A stretch of DNA of 64,000 nucleotides, from assembly GCF_003002815.1 (NCBI RefSeq), contig NZ_PVTF01000001.1, positions 62,001-126,000 of the forward strand, in the 5' to 3' direction. The notes beneath the pieces are model-generated. The model ran no database searches. It was not told where the DNA came from and worked only from the letters and a program-made list of their open reading frames with translations. The DNA is from Umezawaea tangerina. GTDB lineage: Bacteria; Actinomycetota; Actinomycetes; Mycobacteriales; Pseudonocardiaceae. Positions within the stretch are counted from its first letter, which is position 1; each line of letters begins with the position of its first letter. The position numbers and the translations under genes are program-made. Of the stretch, positions 3,202 to 12,928 are shown piece after piece.

Positions 3202-3420
3202 GACCGAACACCGTAGAGGCCTCCGTCCCTGAGAAAAATCGGCAAAGGCCTAGGGGGCGACTCAGGGTCACCACTGATTGCTACGACCGAGGTATCGAGG
3301 ACAGTAAGACTGAAGTCGCACCGAACAATCAACTACAGACCGATGTGTCCGACCCCTGCGGAGCGGCAGGCTGTGATCCATCAACCAGGGGAAGCGGCAG
3401 GCGCCGCCAGGGGAGAGATC

Positions 3421-4332
3421 ATGATCGAGGCGATCGGCCTCACCAAGCGGTACGGGAACACGGTGGCGGTGGACGACCTGTCGTTCACCGTGGCTCCCGG
3501 CAGGGTGACGGGGTTCCTCGGGCCCAACGGCGCGGGCAAGTCCACGACCATGCGGATGATCCTGGGGCTCGACCGGCCGACGAGCGGCAAGGCGCTCATC
3601 GACGGGAAGCCCTACGCGCAGCTGGACCGTCCACTGCGGACGGTCGGGGCGCTGCTCGACGCGAAGTGGGTGCACCCCAACCGCTCGGCGCGGGCGCACC
3701 TGCAGTGGCTGGCGAAGTCCAACGGGCTGCCCGCGCGTCGGGTCGAAGAGGTGTTGGAGATGGTGGGGCTCACGGCGGTCGCGAAGCGGCGGGCCGGGGG
3801 CTACTCGTTGGGCATGGCGCAGCGGTTGGGCATCGCGGGGGCGTTGCTGGGGGACCCGCAGGTGCTGCTGTTCGACGAGCCGGTGAACGGGTTGGACCCG
3901 GAGGGCATCCTCTGGATCCGGCAGTTCATGCAGGGCCTGGCGGCGGAGGGGCGCACCGTGCTGGTGTCGAGCCACCTGCTGTCGGAGATGGCGCTGACCG
4001 CGCAGGACCTGGTGGTCATCGGCAAGGGCAAGATCATTTCGCAGAGCAGCACGACGGAGTTCATCGAGCGGGCGACGGAGAACAGCGTCCTGGTGCGCAG
4101 CCCGCAGGCGAGCAAGCTCGGACCGCTCCTGGTCGACAAGGGGTACACGGTCCGCACCGACGACGACGGCTCGCTGTCGGTCACCGGGGCGACCAGCGAC
4201 CAGGTCGGCGACATCGCGGGCGCCAACGCCGTGGTGCTGCACGAGCTGAGCCCGCAGCGCGGATCGCTGGAGCAGGCGTTCATGCAGCTGACCGGCGACT
4301 CCGTCGAGTACCACGCCGAGATCGGGAAGTGA
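3421..4332 (+). CDS. ABC transporter ATP-binding protein (ABC-2 exporter, copy 1)
   Basis: A 303-aa nucleotide-binding subunit of an exporter-type ABC system. It shows Walker A GPNGAGKS (about residues 38-45), the signature region YSLGMAQRLGIAG, Walker B VLLFDEP and the downstream switch His in SSHLLSE. The C-terminal 80 residues are the accessory domain typical of this drug/lantibiotic-exporter-like group. ATG at 3421 matches the paralogue at 6095 residue for residue; a purine-rich GGGGAGAG precedes it. Four nt separate it from its permease gene. The substrate is unknown. Confidence 0.93.
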   Translation: MIEAIGLTKRYGNTVAVDDLSFTVAPGRVTGFLGPNGAGKSTTMRMILGLDRPTSGKALIDGKPYAQLDRPLRTVGALLDAKWVHPNRSARAHLQWLAKSNGLPARRVEEVLEMVGLTAVAKRRAGGYSLGMAQRLGIAGALLGDPQVLLFDEPVNGLDPEGILWIRQFMQGLAAEGRTVLVSSHLLSEMALTAQDLVVIGKGKIISQSSTTEFIERATENSVLVRSPQASKLGPLLVDKGYTVRTDDDGSLSVTGATSDQVGDIAGANAVVLHELSPQRGSLEQAFMQLTGDSVEYHAEIGK

Positions 4333-4336
4333 ATCG

Positions 4337-5098
4337 ATGACTCTGCTCGCAGTCGAACGCATCAAGCTGTTCAGCACGCGCTCGCCGTGGTGGTGCATGG
4401 CGCTGGCCATCGCGCTCACCGTCGGCATGGCCTCGTTGATCGCGGCCAACACGGGTGACCAGTTCCCGCTCAACGTGGCGGTCACCCAGAGCTTCACCGA
4501 CTTCGGGATGGTCGTGATCATGGTGATGGCCGCCTTGGCCGCCACCACCGAGTACCGGTTCGGCACGATCCGGGCCACGTTCCTCGCGGTGCCGAGCCGC
4601 ACCGGGGCGCTGGTCGCGAAGGCCACCGTCGTGGCGCTGCTCGCCGGCGTCGTGGGCGAGGTCGTCGCCTTCGGGTCGTGGGGGATCAGCAAGCTGATCA
4701 AGCCGAACGTCGACCTGGCGATCAACTCCACCGCGGAGTGGCGCAACGTCGCGGGCACCGGCCTGGTGTTCATGATCGCCGCGCTCCTCGCGGTGGCGGT
4801 GGGCATCCTGATCAGGCAGACCGCGGGGGCGGTCGCGATCCTGCTCGTCTACACGATGCTGGTGGAGAACCTGATCGGGCTCATCCCGACGCTCGGCCAG
4901 AAGATCCAGCGCTGGCTGCCGTTCATGCACGCGAACAACTTCCGGACCGCGGACGGCGCACCGGTCACCGACGGACCGGGCGCCGGATCGCAACTGGACT
5001 TCCCGTTCGGCCCATGGGGATCGCTGGCCTACTTCGCGGCCATCGGTGTCGGTCTGCTGGTCGTGGCGCTGGTCGTCGCGAAGCGGCGGGACGCGTAA
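4337..5098 (+). CDS. ABC-2 type permease (copy 1)
   Basis: A 253-aa integral membrane protein with about six hydrophobic segments. It begins with a short cytosolic amphipathic stretch (LLAVERIKLFSTRSPWW) and ends in a hydrophobic segment followed by KRRDA. It is the membrane partner of the ATPase encoded 4 nt upstream. It is strongly similar to the permease at 5303-6055 over its whole length, so the two arose by tandem duplication. The exported substrate is unknown. Confidence 0.9.
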   Translation: MTLLAVERIKLFSTRSPWWCMALAIALTVGMASLIAANTGDQFPLNVAVTQSFTDFGMVVIMVMAALAATTEYRFGTIRATFLAVPSRTGALVAKATVVALLAGVVGEVVAFGSWGISKLIKPNVDLAINSTAEWRNVAGTGLVFMIAALLAVAVGILIRQTAGAVAILLVYTMLVENLIGLIPTLGQKIQRWLPFMHANNFRTADGAPVTDGPGAGSQLDFPFGPWGSLAYFAAIGVGLLVVALVVAKRRDA

Positions 5099-5169
5099 AG
5101 GGGACGCGTAGGGATGAACGGATCCGACCGCACGGGCGCATCGGGGTCGCTCGCGGTCGGAACGGGGGA

Positions 5170-5214
5170 GAAGGAGCTCGGATCACCTCTCGGGGTGGTG
5201 GTCCGGGCTCCTTC
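5170..5214 (+). terminator. Hairpin between the two ABC operons
   Basis: 13-nt arms (5170-5182 and 5202-5214) pair with a single mismatch. A second CACC/GGTG pairing lies inside the loop. The hairpin sits about 70 nt after the first permease stop and 88 nt before the second permease start. It probably ends or attenuates the first operon; no clear T run follows. Confidence 0.55.
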
Positions 5215-5302
5215 AACGTTCTCGGATCGCGAAGATCACCGGAATGCGCGACGGTTGTCCGGAACACCGCGGCAGTCGCCCCAAGGACCGGGAAGTGAAC
5301 CA

Positions 5303-6055
5303 GTGACCCTGCTCGCCGTCGAACGCATCAAGCTCTTCAGCACGCGCTCGCCCTGGTGGTGCATGGCGCTGGCCATGGTGATCACCATCGGCATGGCCGC
5401 GCTGATCTCGGCCAACACCGACGACCGGTTCCCGCTGACCGTGTCGGTGTCGCAGGGGTTCAGCAACTTCGGGATGGTCGTGATCATGGTGATGGCCGCG
5501 CTGGCCGTCACGACGGAGTACAGGTTCGGCACGATCCGGGCCACCTTCCTCGCCGTGCCCGGCCGCGTGCAGGCGCTGCTGGCCAAGACCGCCGTCGTGG
5601 CGCTGCTCGCGGGCGTTGTCGGCGAGGCCGTGGCGTTCGGCTCCTGGGGCATCGGCACGCTGATCAAGCCCGACGCCGACATGGCGATCAACTCCTCGGC
5701 GGAGTGGCGCAACGTGGCGGGCACCGGCCTGGTGTTCGCGCTCGCCGCCGTGCTGGCCGTCGCGGTGGGCGTCCTGGTGCGCCAGACAGCAGGCGCCGTG
5801 GCGATCCTGCTGGTCTACACGATGCTGGTGGAGAGCCTGATCGGGCTCATCCCCACGCTCGGCCAGAAGATCCAGCGCTGGCTGCCGTTCCAGAACTCGA
5901 CCAACTTCCAGACGGCGGGCAACGAGTCGTTCATGAACGAGACCGGCGGCCTGGACTACCCGTTCGGGCCCTGGGGGTCGCTGGTCTACTTCGCCGCCAT
6001 CTGCGTCGGCCTGCTCGTCGTGGCGCTCGTGGTGGCCAAGCGGCGGGACGCCTAG
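5303..6055 (+). CDS. ABC-2 type permease (copy 2)
   Basis: A 250-aa paralogue of the permease at 4337-5098. It has the same N-terminal amphipathic region, six predicted membrane segments and the KRRDA C-terminus. GTG at 5303 is preferred over an in-frame ATG farther upstream (5114), because the resulting protein aligns end to end with copy 1 and GGAAG lies 7 nt before it. The upstream extension would translate the intergenic hairpin. It is followed by its own ATPase gene, so in this copy the gene order is reversed. Confidence 0.88.
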   Translation: MTLLAVERIKLFSTRSPWWCMALAMVITIGMAALISANTDDRFPLTVSVSQGFSNFGMVVIMVMAALAVTTEYRFGTIRATFLAVPGRVQALLAKTAVVALLAGVVGEAVAFGSWGIGTLIKPDADMAINSSAEWRNVAGTGLVFALAAVLAVAVGVLVRQTAGAVAILLVYTMLVESLIGLIPTLGQKIQRWLPFQNSTNFQTAGNESFMNETGGLDYPFGPWGSLVYFAAICVGLLVVALVVAKRRDA

Positions 6056-6094
6056 CTCGTTCGTTCACGCACAACGGACCCGATCGGAGCGGTC

Positions 6095-6997
6095 ATGATC
6101 GAAGCTGCGGGACTCACCAAGCACTACGGCACCACGGTCGCCGTCGACGACCTGTCGTTCACCGTCGAGGCGGGCCGCGTGACCGGCTTCCTCGGCCCGA
6201 ACGGCGCCGGCAAGTCGACCACCATGCGGATGATCCTGGGGCTGGACACCCCCAACAAGGGCCGCGCGCTCATCGACGGCAAGCCCTACGTGGAGCTCAA
6301 GCGCCCGCTCGGCACGGTCGGCGCGCTGCTCGACGCGAAGTGGGTGCACCCCAACCGCTCGGCCCGCTCGCACCTGCGCTGGCTCGCCAAGTCCAACCAC
6401 ATCTCCTACCAGCGCGTCGACGAGGTGCTGGAGATGGTCGGCCTCACCGCCGTCGCCCACCGCAACGCAGGCGGCTTCTCGCTCGGCATGGCGCAGCGGC
6501 TCGGCATCGCGGGCGCGCTGCTGGGCGACCCCTCGGTCCTGCTGTTCGACGAGCCCGTCAACGGCCTCGACCCCGAGGGCATCGTCTGGATCCGCCAGTT
6601 CATGCACCGCCTCGCGGGCGAGGGCCGGACCGTGCTGGTGTCGAGCCACCTGCTCTCGGAGATGGCGCAGACCGCGCAGGACCTGATCGTCATCGGCAGG
6701 GGCAAGCTGATCGCCCAGACCAGCACCGACCAGTTCATCAAGGACGCCACCGAGGACAGCGTCCGGGTCCGGTCGCCGCACGCCGACAAGCTCCGCGAGC
6801 TGCTCGACGGCTCCGCCGCGGTCACCGACGACGCCGTCGACGGCGCCCTCGTCGTGCACGGCATGGACCCCGCGTCGATCGGTGAGCTGGCCGCCGCGAA
6901 CGGCGTCGTGCTGCACGAGCTGAGCCCGACGCGCGGCTCGCTGGAGGAGGCGTTCATGCAGCTGACCAAGGAGTCGGTGGAGTACCACGGAGCGTGA
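6095..6997 (+). CDS. ABC transporter ATP-binding protein (ABC-2 exporter, copy 2)
   Basis: A 300-aa paralogue of the ATPase at 3421-4332, with Walker A GPNGAGKS, signature FSLGMAQRLGIAG, Walker B VLLFDEP and the SSHLLSEM switch. The ATG is preceded by GGAGCGGTC. It lies 39 nt after permease copy 2. The most variable part between the copies is the last 80 residues, which suggests that regulation or partner choice has diverged rather than catalysis. Confidence 0.93.
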   Translation: MIEAAGLTKHYGTTVAVDDLSFTVEAGRVTGFLGPNGAGKSTTMRMILGLDTPNKGRALIDGKPYVELKRPLGTVGALLDAKWVHPNRSARSHLRWLAKSNHISYQRVDEVLEMVGLTAVAHRNAGGFSLGMAQRLGIAGALLGDPSVLLFDEPVNGLDPEGIVWIRQFMHRLAGEGRTVLVSSHLLSEMAQTAQDLIVIGRGKLIAQTSTDQFIKDATEDSVRVRSPHADKLRELLDGSAAVTDDAVDGALVVHGMDPASIGELAAANGVVLHELSPTRGSLEEAFMQLTKESVEYHGA

Positions 6998-8727: not shown

Positions 8728-8760
8728 ACCCTCAGTGGTCGATGTGCCACCACTGAGGGT
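8728..8760 (+). terminator. Terminator after trmB
   Basis: 12-nt perfect arms ACCCTCAGTGGT and ACCACTGAGGGT with a 9-nt loop, starting 19 nt after the trmB stop. It isolates trmB from the following NOS-like gene. Confidence 0.8.
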
Positions 8761-8802
8761 TTCGGGATCGCTTGATCGGGTGGTGCTTGTTGATCACCCG
8801 GA

Positions 8803-10020
8803 GTGCCCCGTCTGGCAGTGACGAGTAAAGACGTTCCGCAACTACGGTTACCGACCGTGACCGCAGTCCACAACGGAGTCAGAGCGCTCCCCGAGGCACC
8901 AGACCTCGATGCCGCGGAGGGTTTCCTCCGCATGTTCCACATCGCACACCCCGAGGCGGGCGCCATCGGCACCCGGCTGGCGGCCGTGCGTGCGGAAGTG
9001 GCGCAGACCGGTACCTACCGGCACACCACCCAGGAGCTGTCCTACGGCGCGCGGATCGCGATGCGCGACAGCGGCTGGTGCACCAGCGGCCTGCCGTGGC
9101 GCAGGCTGAAGGTGCGCGACCTGCGCGGCCTGCGCAACGCGGCCGCCGTGGCCAACGAGTGCGTCGAGCACCTGCGGCTGGCCACCAACGGCGGTGAGAT
9201 CCGCCCGCTGGTGACGGTGTTCGCGCCGGACTCGCCGTCCGGACCCGGCCCGTGCGTCTGGAACGAGCAGCTCATCCGGTACGCCGGGTACTCCGACGGC
9301 ATCGGCGACCCGCGCTACGCCGCGTTCACCGACGCGGTGCAGGGCATGGGCTGGAAGGCGCCGACCATGCGCAGCAGGTTCGACGTGCTGCCGCTCGTCG
9401 TGGAGACCGCCCACGAGGGACCGCGGCTGTTCACGCTGCCACCTGAGGTGGTGCACGAGGTGCCGATCGAGCACCCCGACCTGCCGTGGTTCGGCGGGCT
9501 CGGGCTGCGCTGGCACGCCGTGCCGGTGATCGGCAACATGCGGCTGTCCATCGGCGGCGTCAGCTACCCCGCGGCGCCGTTCAACTCGTGGTTCGTCGGG
9601 TCCGAGATCGGCACCCGCAGCCTGGGCGACGAGAACGGCTACGCCGCCGCCAAACCCGTCGCGCAAGCGCTTGGCCTGGACACGACCTCCGAGCGCACGC
9701 TGTGGCGCGACCGCGCCGTCGTCGAGCTGAACCGCGCGGTGCTGCACTCGTTCGACCGCGCCGAGGTGACCATCACCGACCACCACGCCGAGTCGCAGCA
9801 CCGGCTGTCGTGGCTGCGCGCCCGGCAGCGGCACAGCGGCAACCGGCCGACGTTCCGCCTCGACCCCGGCTCGGCGCAACGAGCGCGCACCGGTGGCCCC
9901 GCGCGATTTTCCGCATCGGAAAGCGAAACCACCCGACCCCAGTCCCCCGGTCGTTTGGCGGAACTCCTCAGGCACCACAACGACCGCTCGAGCGGACTGC
10001 ACTCCGACGATTCGCGATAA
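8803..10020 (+). CDS. Nitric oxide synthase oxygenase-like haem protein, divergent
   Basis: A 405-aa protein resembling bacterial NOS oxygenase domains, which oxidise L-arginine to citrulline and NO. Conserved landmarks in order: the proximal haem Cys region (GWCTSGLPW, Cys93 and stacking Trp99), WNEQLIRYAGY, GMGWKAP..RFDVLPLVV, WFGGLGLRWHAVPVI, PFNSWFVGSEIGTR, LWRDRAVVELNRAVLHSF and DHHAES. Two features are abnormal. The glutamate that binds arginine in known NOS (NMxLEIGG) is Ser249 here (NMRLSIGG). The C-terminal Trp/pterin-side region (DWxW..PP..HR) is absent, replaced by a basic, low-complexity tail. The canonical RCIGR context of the Cys is also changed. The fold is therefore likely, but arginine oxidation is doubtful. 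GTG 8803 is used; GTG at 8818 or 8857 is possible. Confidence 0.82.
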   Translation: MPRLAVTSKDVPQLRLPTVTAVHNGVRALPEAPDLDAAEGFLRMFHIAHPEAGAIGTRLAAVRAEVAQTGTYRHTTQELSYGARIAMRDSGWCTSGLPWRRLKVRDLRGLRNAAAVANECVEHLRLATNGGEIRPLVTVFAPDSPSGPGPCVWNEQLIRYAGYSDGIGDPRYAAFTDAVQGMGWKAPTMRSRFDVLPLVVETAHEGPRLFTLPPEVVHEVPIEHPDLPWFGGLGLRWHAVPVIGNMRLSIGGVSYPAAPFNSWFVGSEIGTRSLGDENGYAAAKPVAQALGLDTTSERTLWRDRAVVELNRAVLHSFDRAEVTITDHHAESQHRLSWLRARQRHSGNRPTFRLDPGSAQRARTGGPARFSASESETTRPQSPGRLAELLRHHNDRSSGLHSDDSR

Positions 10021-10049: not shown

Positions 10050-10148
10050 TCAGCGCTGCGAGTCGACCATCACGCCTGATAGGGCCATCAGGATCAGAAT
10101 GAGCAAGCCGACGACAGCGCCGAACCACGTAGCGATAACCGTGAACAT
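10050..10148 (-). CDS. Small membrane peptide, 32 aa
   Basis: A short frame, normally missed, of 32 codons. ATG at 10148 is preceded by GGAGG with 5 nt spacing. The product has a short N-terminal stretch, one hydrophobic helix (residues about 4-26, including GAVVGLLILILMALSGV) and a polar end DSQR. Its function is unknown. It is transcribed opposite to the flanking NOS-like and sensor kinase genes. The strong ribosome binding site plus membrane-helix composition make it credible. Confidence 0.65.
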   Translation of the reverse strand: MFTVIATWFGAVVGLLILILMALSGVMVDSQR

Positions 10149-11546: not shown

Positions 11547-11620
11547 GGTGGAGACAGGTCTGGTGACGAGCGGATACCCGGTCCGTGCGGGACCAAACCA
11601 GACCGGGCAGGATTTGCCCC

Positions 11621-12928
11621 ATGTCCTCGCGCCTGCACGCCCCGGTGGTCCTGCCCTGCGATCCGACCTGCGGCGTGCTGCGGGACGCCGTGGTCGACGT
11701 GGCCGACGACGGCCGCATCACCCACGTCGGACCGGCGGCCACCGCGCCCGCGTTCGACGGCGAGCGGCGCGAGCTGACCGGCATCCTCATGCCCGGCCTC
11801 GTGAACACGCACGCCCACAGCCCGATGACCGTGCTCCGCGGTCTGGGCGGCGACCTGCCGCTGCTGCGCTGGCTGCAGGAGGCGATCTGGCCGAACGAGG
11901 CCAAGATGACCCCGCAGGACAGCGGCGCCGGCATGCTCCTCGGCGCCGTCGAGATGCTGCGCAACGGCGTCACCACCAGCGCCGAGATGTACTTCCACGC
12001 CGAACAGCTCGTCGAGTCCGCGCTGGCCGCGGGCTCGCGCACCGTCGTCGGCATCGCCGTGCTCGACCTGCCCGGCATGCCGTGGCGCCCGATGGCCGAG
12101 GCGATCGACAAGTGGATCGACGCCGACGGCCTCCGCTTCGGCCCCGGCGACCGCGTCGAGCTCGGCTACGGCCCCCACTCCGCGTACATGCTCGCACCCG
12201 AGGTGCTCGGCGAGCTCGCCGCCGCTGCCCGGCAGCGCGGCGCCCTCACCCAGATCCACGTCGCCGAGGCCCCGAACGAGGACGCCGCCCAGCGCGCCTC
12301 CCACGGCTCGGTGCCGAAGCTGCTGGAACAGGCCGGCGTCCTCGACGGCCGCGTGCTCTCCGCGCACTCCGTGCACCTGTCCGCCGAGGACATCGCCATC
12401 TACGCGAAGCACCGCGTCGGCGTCGCCCACTGCCCCGGCTCCAACACCAAGCTCGCCTCCGGCATCGCCCCGCTCCGCGCCTACCTCGACGCGGGCGTCC
12501 CCGTCGGCCTCGGCACCGACGGCCCCGCCAGCAACGACGACCTCGACCTCTTCGAAGAAGCCCGCCTGGCCGCCCTCCTCGCCAGGGTCACCGCCCTCGA
12601 CGCCTCCGCCGTCAAAGCCGCCGACGCCCTCCTCCTCGCCACCCGCGGCGGCGCCGCCGCCCTCGGCCGCACCGACATCGGCACCCTGGCCCCCGACCAC
12701 TGGGCCGACCTCGTCCACATCGACGTCGACGACCCCGCCTTCGCCACCGGCCTCGACGCCCCCGACGACCAGATCCTGGCGAACCTCGTGTGGGCCACGG
12801 GTTCCCGGCGGGTGCTCGACGTGTGGGTGGCGGGGGAGCAGGTCGTGGCCGGCGGGGAGAGCACGCGGGTGGACCGGGCGGAGGCTCAGGCGGCGGTGGG
12901 CGCCGTCGCGGCTCGCCTGCGGGGCTGA
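11621..12928 (+). CDS. Amidohydrolase, SAH/MTA deaminase-like
   Basis: A 435-aa metal-dependent hydrolase of the cytosine-deaminase/TrzA/SsnA branch, which deaminates purines or S-adenosylhomocysteine/methylthioadenosine. Metal-site motifs are present in order: NTHAHSPMTVLRG, IHVAEAPNE (His), AHCPGSNTKLASG (His) and LGTDGPASNDDLD (Asp). ATG at 11621 gives a normal family length. The gene is alone, 114 nt after the kinase. Substrate assignment within the family cannot be made from sequence alone. Confidence 0.85.
   Translation: MSSRLHAPVVLPCDPTCGVLRDAVVDVADDGRITHVGPAATAPAFDGERRELTGILMPGLVNTHAHSPMTVLRGLGGDLPLLRWLQEAIWPNEAKMTPQDSGAGMLLGAVEMLRNGVTTSAEMYFHAEQLVESALAAGSRTVVGIAVLDLPGMPWRPMAEAIDKWIDADGLRFGPGDRVELGYGPHSAYMLAPEVLGELAAAARQRGALTQIHVAEAPNEDAAQRASHGSVPKLLEQAGVLDGRVLSAHSVHLSAEDIAIYAKHRVGVAHCPGSNTKLASGIAPLRAYLDAGVPVGLGTDGPASNDDLDLFEEARLAALLARVTALDASAVKAADALLLATRGGAAALGRTDIGTLAPDHWADLVHIDVDDPAFATGLDAPDDQILANLVWATGSRRVLDVWVAGEQVVAGGESTRVDRAEAQAAVGAVAARLRG

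Follow-up and report, generated by a model that had tools for sequence, protein, structure and literature searches.

Introduction

What can a protein with a nitric oxide synthase (NOS) fold do when it keeps the haem-thiolate Cys and has lost the segment that serves the pterin? This question is raised by a gene of the actinomycete Umezawaea tangerina, which lies at 8803..10020 on the forward strand of the 64,000-nucleotide stretch of DNA analysed here (contig NZ_PVTF01000001.1, positions 62,001 to 126,000; hereafter, the window) and encodes a NOS-oxygenase homologue of 405 residues. Judged from alignments with its relatives, the gene is a member of a real NOS paralogue class that has lost both the proximal haem Trp and some 30 residues of the pterin/dimer segment and retains the tail beyond it. 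The Glu that clamps the substrate guanidinium in NOS is retained in the window protein, contrary to an initial annotation of this DNA. Searches of an open-access library listed no paper whose title or abstract points to such a NOS class.

Results

Family membership of the window gene

The open frame runs from a GTG at 8803 to a stop at 10020, and this start is supported by the GTG or ATG found at the same place in 12 relatives. The product matches the Pfam profile NO_synthase (PF02898) with 360.8 bits (E = 9.4e-108; curated cut-off, 22.7) over profile positions 8–318 of 362, and its best relatives in a sequence search of the PDB are NOS chains (2flq, 4.6e-81). Among named relatives, that of Umezawaea endophytica is the nearest (89%). 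According to a profile search, two PF02898 genes are present in the source genome (10.68 Mb, 34 contigs), namely an ordinary NOS gene on contig 18 (505.8 bits) and the window gene. In predicted fold, the latter is a member of the NOS family, and in anatomy it is a new variant.

Loss of the proximal Trp and the pterin/dimer segment

NOS homologues from the fetched loci were aligned in 221 rows (the genome and genus codes given below, such as G004 or g31, and family codes such as f1 are those of the sampled genome set). Rows with the proximal Trp, the haem Cys and a DWxW-type motif were designated as ordinary (122), and those with the Cys and with neither the Trp nor the motif as class rows (78), so that both groups are uniform at these sites by construction; a cross-table of Trp, Cys and motif over all 221 rows was made independently of this definition. 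The window gene is included twice in the class rows (P0001 and L002), which leaves 77 distinct members. The 21 rows in neither group comprise 20 that have the Trp but fall outside the motif pattern (in 15 of these, the segment is a DWSW variant) and a broken copy (L206); four of the 21 (L177–L180) have Gly for Cys. Six fragment pieces (two each of L258 and L210, one each of L216 and L206) had been removed beforehand.

Cys93 of the window protein aligns with the haem-thiolate Cys of NOS chains, as the initial annotation had presumed, and the surrounding loop, Trp92-Cys93-Thr-Ser-Gly96-Leu97 (9076..9093), reads WCTSG instead of RCIGR, a change of context that had also been noticed. The proximal Trp of NOS lies six residues before the Cys, the pair being W188 and C194 in inducible NOS (iNOS). 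In the 221-row alignment, this site is occupied by Met87 in the window protein (9061..9063); Trp99, which had been listed as a kept landmark, is a different residue. Over the whole alignment, the proximal site is Trp in 142 rows and another residue or none in 79, and the 78 class rows have Leu (72), Met (4) or Val (2). Except for the broken L206, which has no residue there, every row that lacks the proximal Trp has the haem Cys (78 of 79); among all 221 rows, the site is Cys in 216, Gly in four and empty in L206. The four Gly-bearing rows (genomes G401, G414, G423 and G431) form a remote NOS-like group from another family of the order, with scores of 208–214 bits to the NOS profile made here. 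Poor model confidence around the haem loops was rejected as a sign of lost structure, since the model of a control ordinary NOS (L015) was about as poor there; the mean predicted local distance difference test scores of the window protein and the control, modelled with the same 17 sequences, were 68.3 and 65.9, respectively.

The second loss lies between residues 347 and 348 (9843..9844), a point at which some 30 residues present in ordinary NOS are absent. Across this point the window protein reads RHSGNRPTFRLDPGSAQRARTGGPARF, about 30 residues fewer than in the ordinary Crossiella NOS (L015), and the pterin/dimer segment DWxWIVPP...F is missing, which agrees with the initial view that the C-terminal DWxW pterin-side region was gone. 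The missing segment presumably carries the Trp and Phe residues that contact the pterin. The 79 rows that lack the proximal Trp are all devoid of a DWxW-type motif. After the gap, residues 348–370 (RPTFRLDP...GGPARF; 9844..9912) resemble the tail of the ordinary Crossiella NOS when aligned by eye, and a wholly new C-terminal tail was therefore rejected for the window protein. Many relatives share both the loss of the segment and this tail, and in a number of other class members the tail is shorter or of another kind.

Retention of the guanidinium-binding Glu

The initial annotation took the Glu of the LEIGG motif for the substrate clamp and read its replacement by Ser249 (9547..9549) as the loss of standard arginine binding. 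Ser249 does align with the LEIGG Glu of NOS chains, but in NOS the guanidinium is bound by another Glu, which follows the Trp of PFNGWYMGTEIG by five residues. PMC10648232 gives Phe353, Ser354, Trp356 and Glu361 as the clamp of human endothelial NOS (eNOS), Trp592 and Glu597 for neuronal NOS (nNOS) and Trp372 and Glu377 for iNOS, and PMC3472740 gives iNOS residues Phe363, Asn364, Gly365, Trp366, Tyr367, Met368, Thr370 and Glu371 in another numbering, apparently the murine one. Because these published clamp residues place the Glu there, the clamp corresponds to Trp+5 in PFNGWYMGTE. A docking study takes Glu592 of nNOS and Glu363 of eNOS as guanidinium partners (PMC10343299). By index count on the eNOS chain, the Trp+5 Glu is residue 361 and the LEIGG Glu residue 342.

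At the clamp, the window protein reads W263-F-V-G-S-E268 (9589..9606), so that the sequence alignment places a Glu at the guanidinium site; the initial annotation had named such a Glu, in a structural alignment, as contrary to its account. All 122 ordinary rows have Glu at the Glu268 site, and at least two changes between Glu and non-Glu are needed over the ordinary and divergent rows of the tree. At position 249, no more than 40 of the ordinary rows have Glu (Arg in 36, Ser in 19, Val in 13 and others in 14), and at least 41 changes are required on the 91-row tree; Ser249 therefore marks no clade, as had been supposed it might. We rejected Ser249 as the substrate clamp, and a loss of arginine binding through this replacement is extremely improbable. 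The subfamily that had been proposed on the strength of the supposed Glu loss is nevertheless distinct and keeps its haem Cys, although the reason given for it does not hold, Glu268 being present.

The window protein keeps Cys93, Trp263, Glu268, Gln156, Arg159 and Arg272, with the Tyr264 site changed to Phe. Among the class rows, the Glu268 site is Glu in 58, Ala in nine, Asp in five, Thr in five and Gly in one, and Gln156, Arg159 and Arg272 are kept together in 54 of the 58 Glu-bearing rows. His238, which replaces a Tyr of iNOS, was rejected as a class feature because ordinary NOS of the same family have it too. Class members truly without the clamp Glu include L099–L101 (g2), L094–L096, L111 and L112 (g23), and L102–L104, L197–L199 and L203 (g4, g6, g22 and g25); their replacements are Thr, Asp, or Ala, Thr or Gly combined with a change of Trp263 to Val or Ile.

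Descent and spread of the class

In a tree built without the two motif blocks, 30 divergent rows form one side of a branch with a support of 94 (not starred) in the Shimodaira–Hasegawa-like approximate likelihood ratio test. This branch sits in a 45-row group (96, starred) whose other 15 rows are ordinary; of these, 14 belong to the same family and L188 to a different one. On the class tree, a quick tree without bootstrap, Crossiella NOS stands next to the class (support 86). Crossiella NOS also adjoins the class in the best tree; a constraint joining the class to three g31 rows is absent from that tree and is unrejected by the approximately unbiased test (p-AU 0.169). Descent of the class from the NOS of genus g31, which occupies the same locus as described below, is on these comparisons neither shown nor excluded.

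No class member was found outside the window's family among 38 of the 39 matched non-family genomes of the order sample and the 51 further ones of the class-rank sample, both samples being drawn from larger groups; G420, G516 and G757 gave only fragments, which were left unclassed, and a weak match in G428 was left unfetched. Within the family, 95 of 390 genomes, representing 14 of 46 genera, each contain a single match to a DNA pattern for RDSGWC-x4-PW, and the reversed control of the pattern gave no match among the rows listed. The 95 genomes are a lower bound, since members varying at the motif (e.g., in g40) are missed.

PF02898 matches number two or more in 84 of these 95 genomes (some possibly fragments) and one in the other 11, and the ordinary paralogue is hence not required. 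This bears on the idea that the product is still an arginine NOS whose pterin site is supplied by heterodimer formation with the ordinary contig-18 paralogue or by another arrangement. The presence of that paralogue in the same genome, the multiple matches in the 84 genomes and the kept guanidine clamp would suit such an arrangement, but a partner is not obligatory given the 11 single-match genomes, and the proximal Trp has been lost as well. We consider this explanation very unlikely.

Selection on the class

The ratio of nonsynonymous to synonymous substitution rates (dN/dS; Nei–Gojobori, over the core) of the window gene was 0.12 against L050, 0.20 against L003, 0.30 against L004 and 0.35 against L014. 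The 15 class pairs tried ranged from 0.09 to 0.41 and four ordinary pairs from 0.05 to 0.28. The class is under purifying selection, which is weaker than that on the ordinary copy of the window's genus.

Two short, weak NOS-like matches near 4577064 on contig 1 of G084 may be remnants. Such possible remnants, together with the broken copy L206 and the loss in the class of many residues that are near-invariant in ordinary NOS, would be expected if the gene were a slowly decaying NOS duplicate with no selected function. The dN/dS values of the 15 class pairs argue against decay, as do the occurrence of the class motif once per genome across the 14 genera and the 38 positions that show a single residue throughout the 78 class rows, the same residue being found in 95% or more of the ordinary rows; we regard decay as quite unlikely.

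Genomic neighbourhood

The conserved upstream neighbour is a gene for a trmB-type methyltransferase (PF02390; 7954..8709, forward strand), and the conserved downstream neighbour is an amidohydrolase gene (11585..12928, forward strand), both assigned with Pfam. Neighbours were counted in the 51 class loci of at least 6.5 kb, a trmB homologue being a match of more than 40% identity anywhere in the locus. trmB was present in 46 of them, 0.8–1.3 kb upstream in 36, 2.2–3.6 kb upstream in nine and on the other side in L199, and it was accompanied by the amidohydrolase gene in 34. Neither gene was found in five of the 51 loci (L094, L095, L096, L111 and L112; genus g23). Among the 24 ordinary NOS loci of at least 6.5 kb, trmB lies 1.0–1.3 kb upstream in four, all of g31 (L194, L259, L260 and L261), three of which have the amidohydrolase gene too; in a related genus, then, an ordinary NOS occupies this very position.

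Downstream of the NOS gene, the window's genus and several others have a histidine kinase gene, which would fit a haem-based sensor or ligand-binding protein that uses the NOS fold for haem and a gas or small ligand and has abandoned catalysis. The persistence of the haem Cys in Trp-less rows while substrate residues drift in sister lineages points the same way. However, the kinase gene is several kb off or not found in many class loci, the window protein matched no output domain in the Pfam scan, and the retention of Glu268, Gln156 and Arg159 in the window lineage would be unneeded. A sensor is, in our estimation, unlikely.

On the reverse strand at 10148–10050, a 32-residue one-helix membrane peptide (MFTVIATWFGAVVGLLILILMALSGVMVDSQR) is encoded convergently to the NOS gene and divergently from the histidine kinase gene. 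Similar peptides (E ≤ 1e-4) occur in 18 of the 51 class loci, and in 16 of these they lie no more than 54 bases beyond the NOS gene. These 16 loci (L003–L014, L079–L081 and L117) are those with the kinase gene close downstream; the peptides of L087 and L107 match less well and lie at a greater distance.

Between trmB and the NOS gene, a terminator-like hairpin with a 10-bp stem was predicted by folding at 8729..8759 (forward strand), which is common to L003 of the same genus and was not seen by eye in the other aligned loci. An inverted repeat, CGGGTG..CACCCG (8777..8800, forward strand), stands just before the start codon and is partly conserved in relatives. In the 12 aligned sequences, the DNA across the start codon (8777–8820; GATCACCCG..TGCCCCG..NGGCAGTGACG) is strongly conserved and contains no clear ribosome site; this element is possibly an operator or a leaderless start. 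Further upstream, at 3343–6997, two adjacent and similar pairs of an ABC-transporter ATPase gene and a membrane gene apparently represent a tandem duplication, and ABC-transporter pairs are also found upstream in several relatives.

Discussion

The pterin of NOS supplies an electron during oxygen activation. Since the pterin segment is gone, the normal two-step NOS cycle should fail in the window protein, and the gene product has probably lost the usual route to nitric oxide. Haem would be bound via Cys93, and a guanidino compound may still be held above the iron by the kept distal site (Trp263, Glu268, Gln156, Arg159 and Arg272). Without the hydrogen bond from the Trp, the thiolate should be a stronger donor and more P450-like. 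A pterin-independent haem-thiolate oxygenase or peroxygenase that carries out a single-step N-hydroxylation of a guanidine would combine these features; this is a guess, to which we give somewhat less than an even chance. The wider proposal, that the class is a widespread, conserved, pterin-free haem-thiolate enzyme, derived from NOS by loss of the pterin site and of the proximal Trp hydrogen bond with the guanidine clamp kept, which performs P450-like single-step chemistry on a guanidine and whose Glu-less sisters act on non-guanidine substrates or in sensing, is tentative and, taken in its entirety, somewhat unlikely.

Several observations weigh against such an enzyme. Compared with the same relative genome, the window gene evolves faster than the ordinary NOS paralogue of its genome (dN/dS of 0.12 and 0.047, respectively). 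A broken NOS copy (L206, 5926–7073) lies at the trmB locus in G004. Glu268 is lost in 20 of the 78 class rows, and 10 of the 15 such rows with long loci are still near trmB, so that a function shared by the class need not involve guanidine. Lastly, among the few neighbours scanned, we recognised no gene for an electron donor and none related to the pterin or a substrate.

Bacterial NOS oxygenase (e.g., the Bacillus subtilis enzyme, PDB 2an2, and the chain in 2flq) resembles the window protein in core fold and length, in the haem Cys, in the Trp and Glu of the substrate helix and in consisting of the oxygenase domain alone, but it keeps the proximal Trp, the RCIGR loop and the pterin/dimer segment, which the window protein lacks. 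The ordinary paralogue of the same genome (G000, contig 18; L001) is 52% identical to the window protein and shares with it His238 and a non-Glu residue (Arg) at position 249; it differs in keeping the proximal Trp, RCIGR, WYMGTE and DWTWIVPP. Compared with the heme domains of mammalian eNOS, nNOS and iNOS, the window protein has neither the reductase region nor the pterin segment. The NOS of actinobacterial biosynthetic clusters (TxtD, PtnF, RufN/IlaM and the lajollamycin NOS) are of the same annotated protein kind and likewise actinobacterial; set against their description in PMC10831120, the window gene differs in lying beside trmB, with no cluster recognised and with the pterin segment absent.

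The class genes match the NOS family profile strongly despite two missing defining parts, which is a warning for assignments made from that profile. One clade has lost both the pterin segment and the proximal Trp but retains the haem Cys and, in many cases, the substrate Glu. The class would thereby offer a natural experiment on the roles of the pterin and of the Trp-thiolate bond in NOS.
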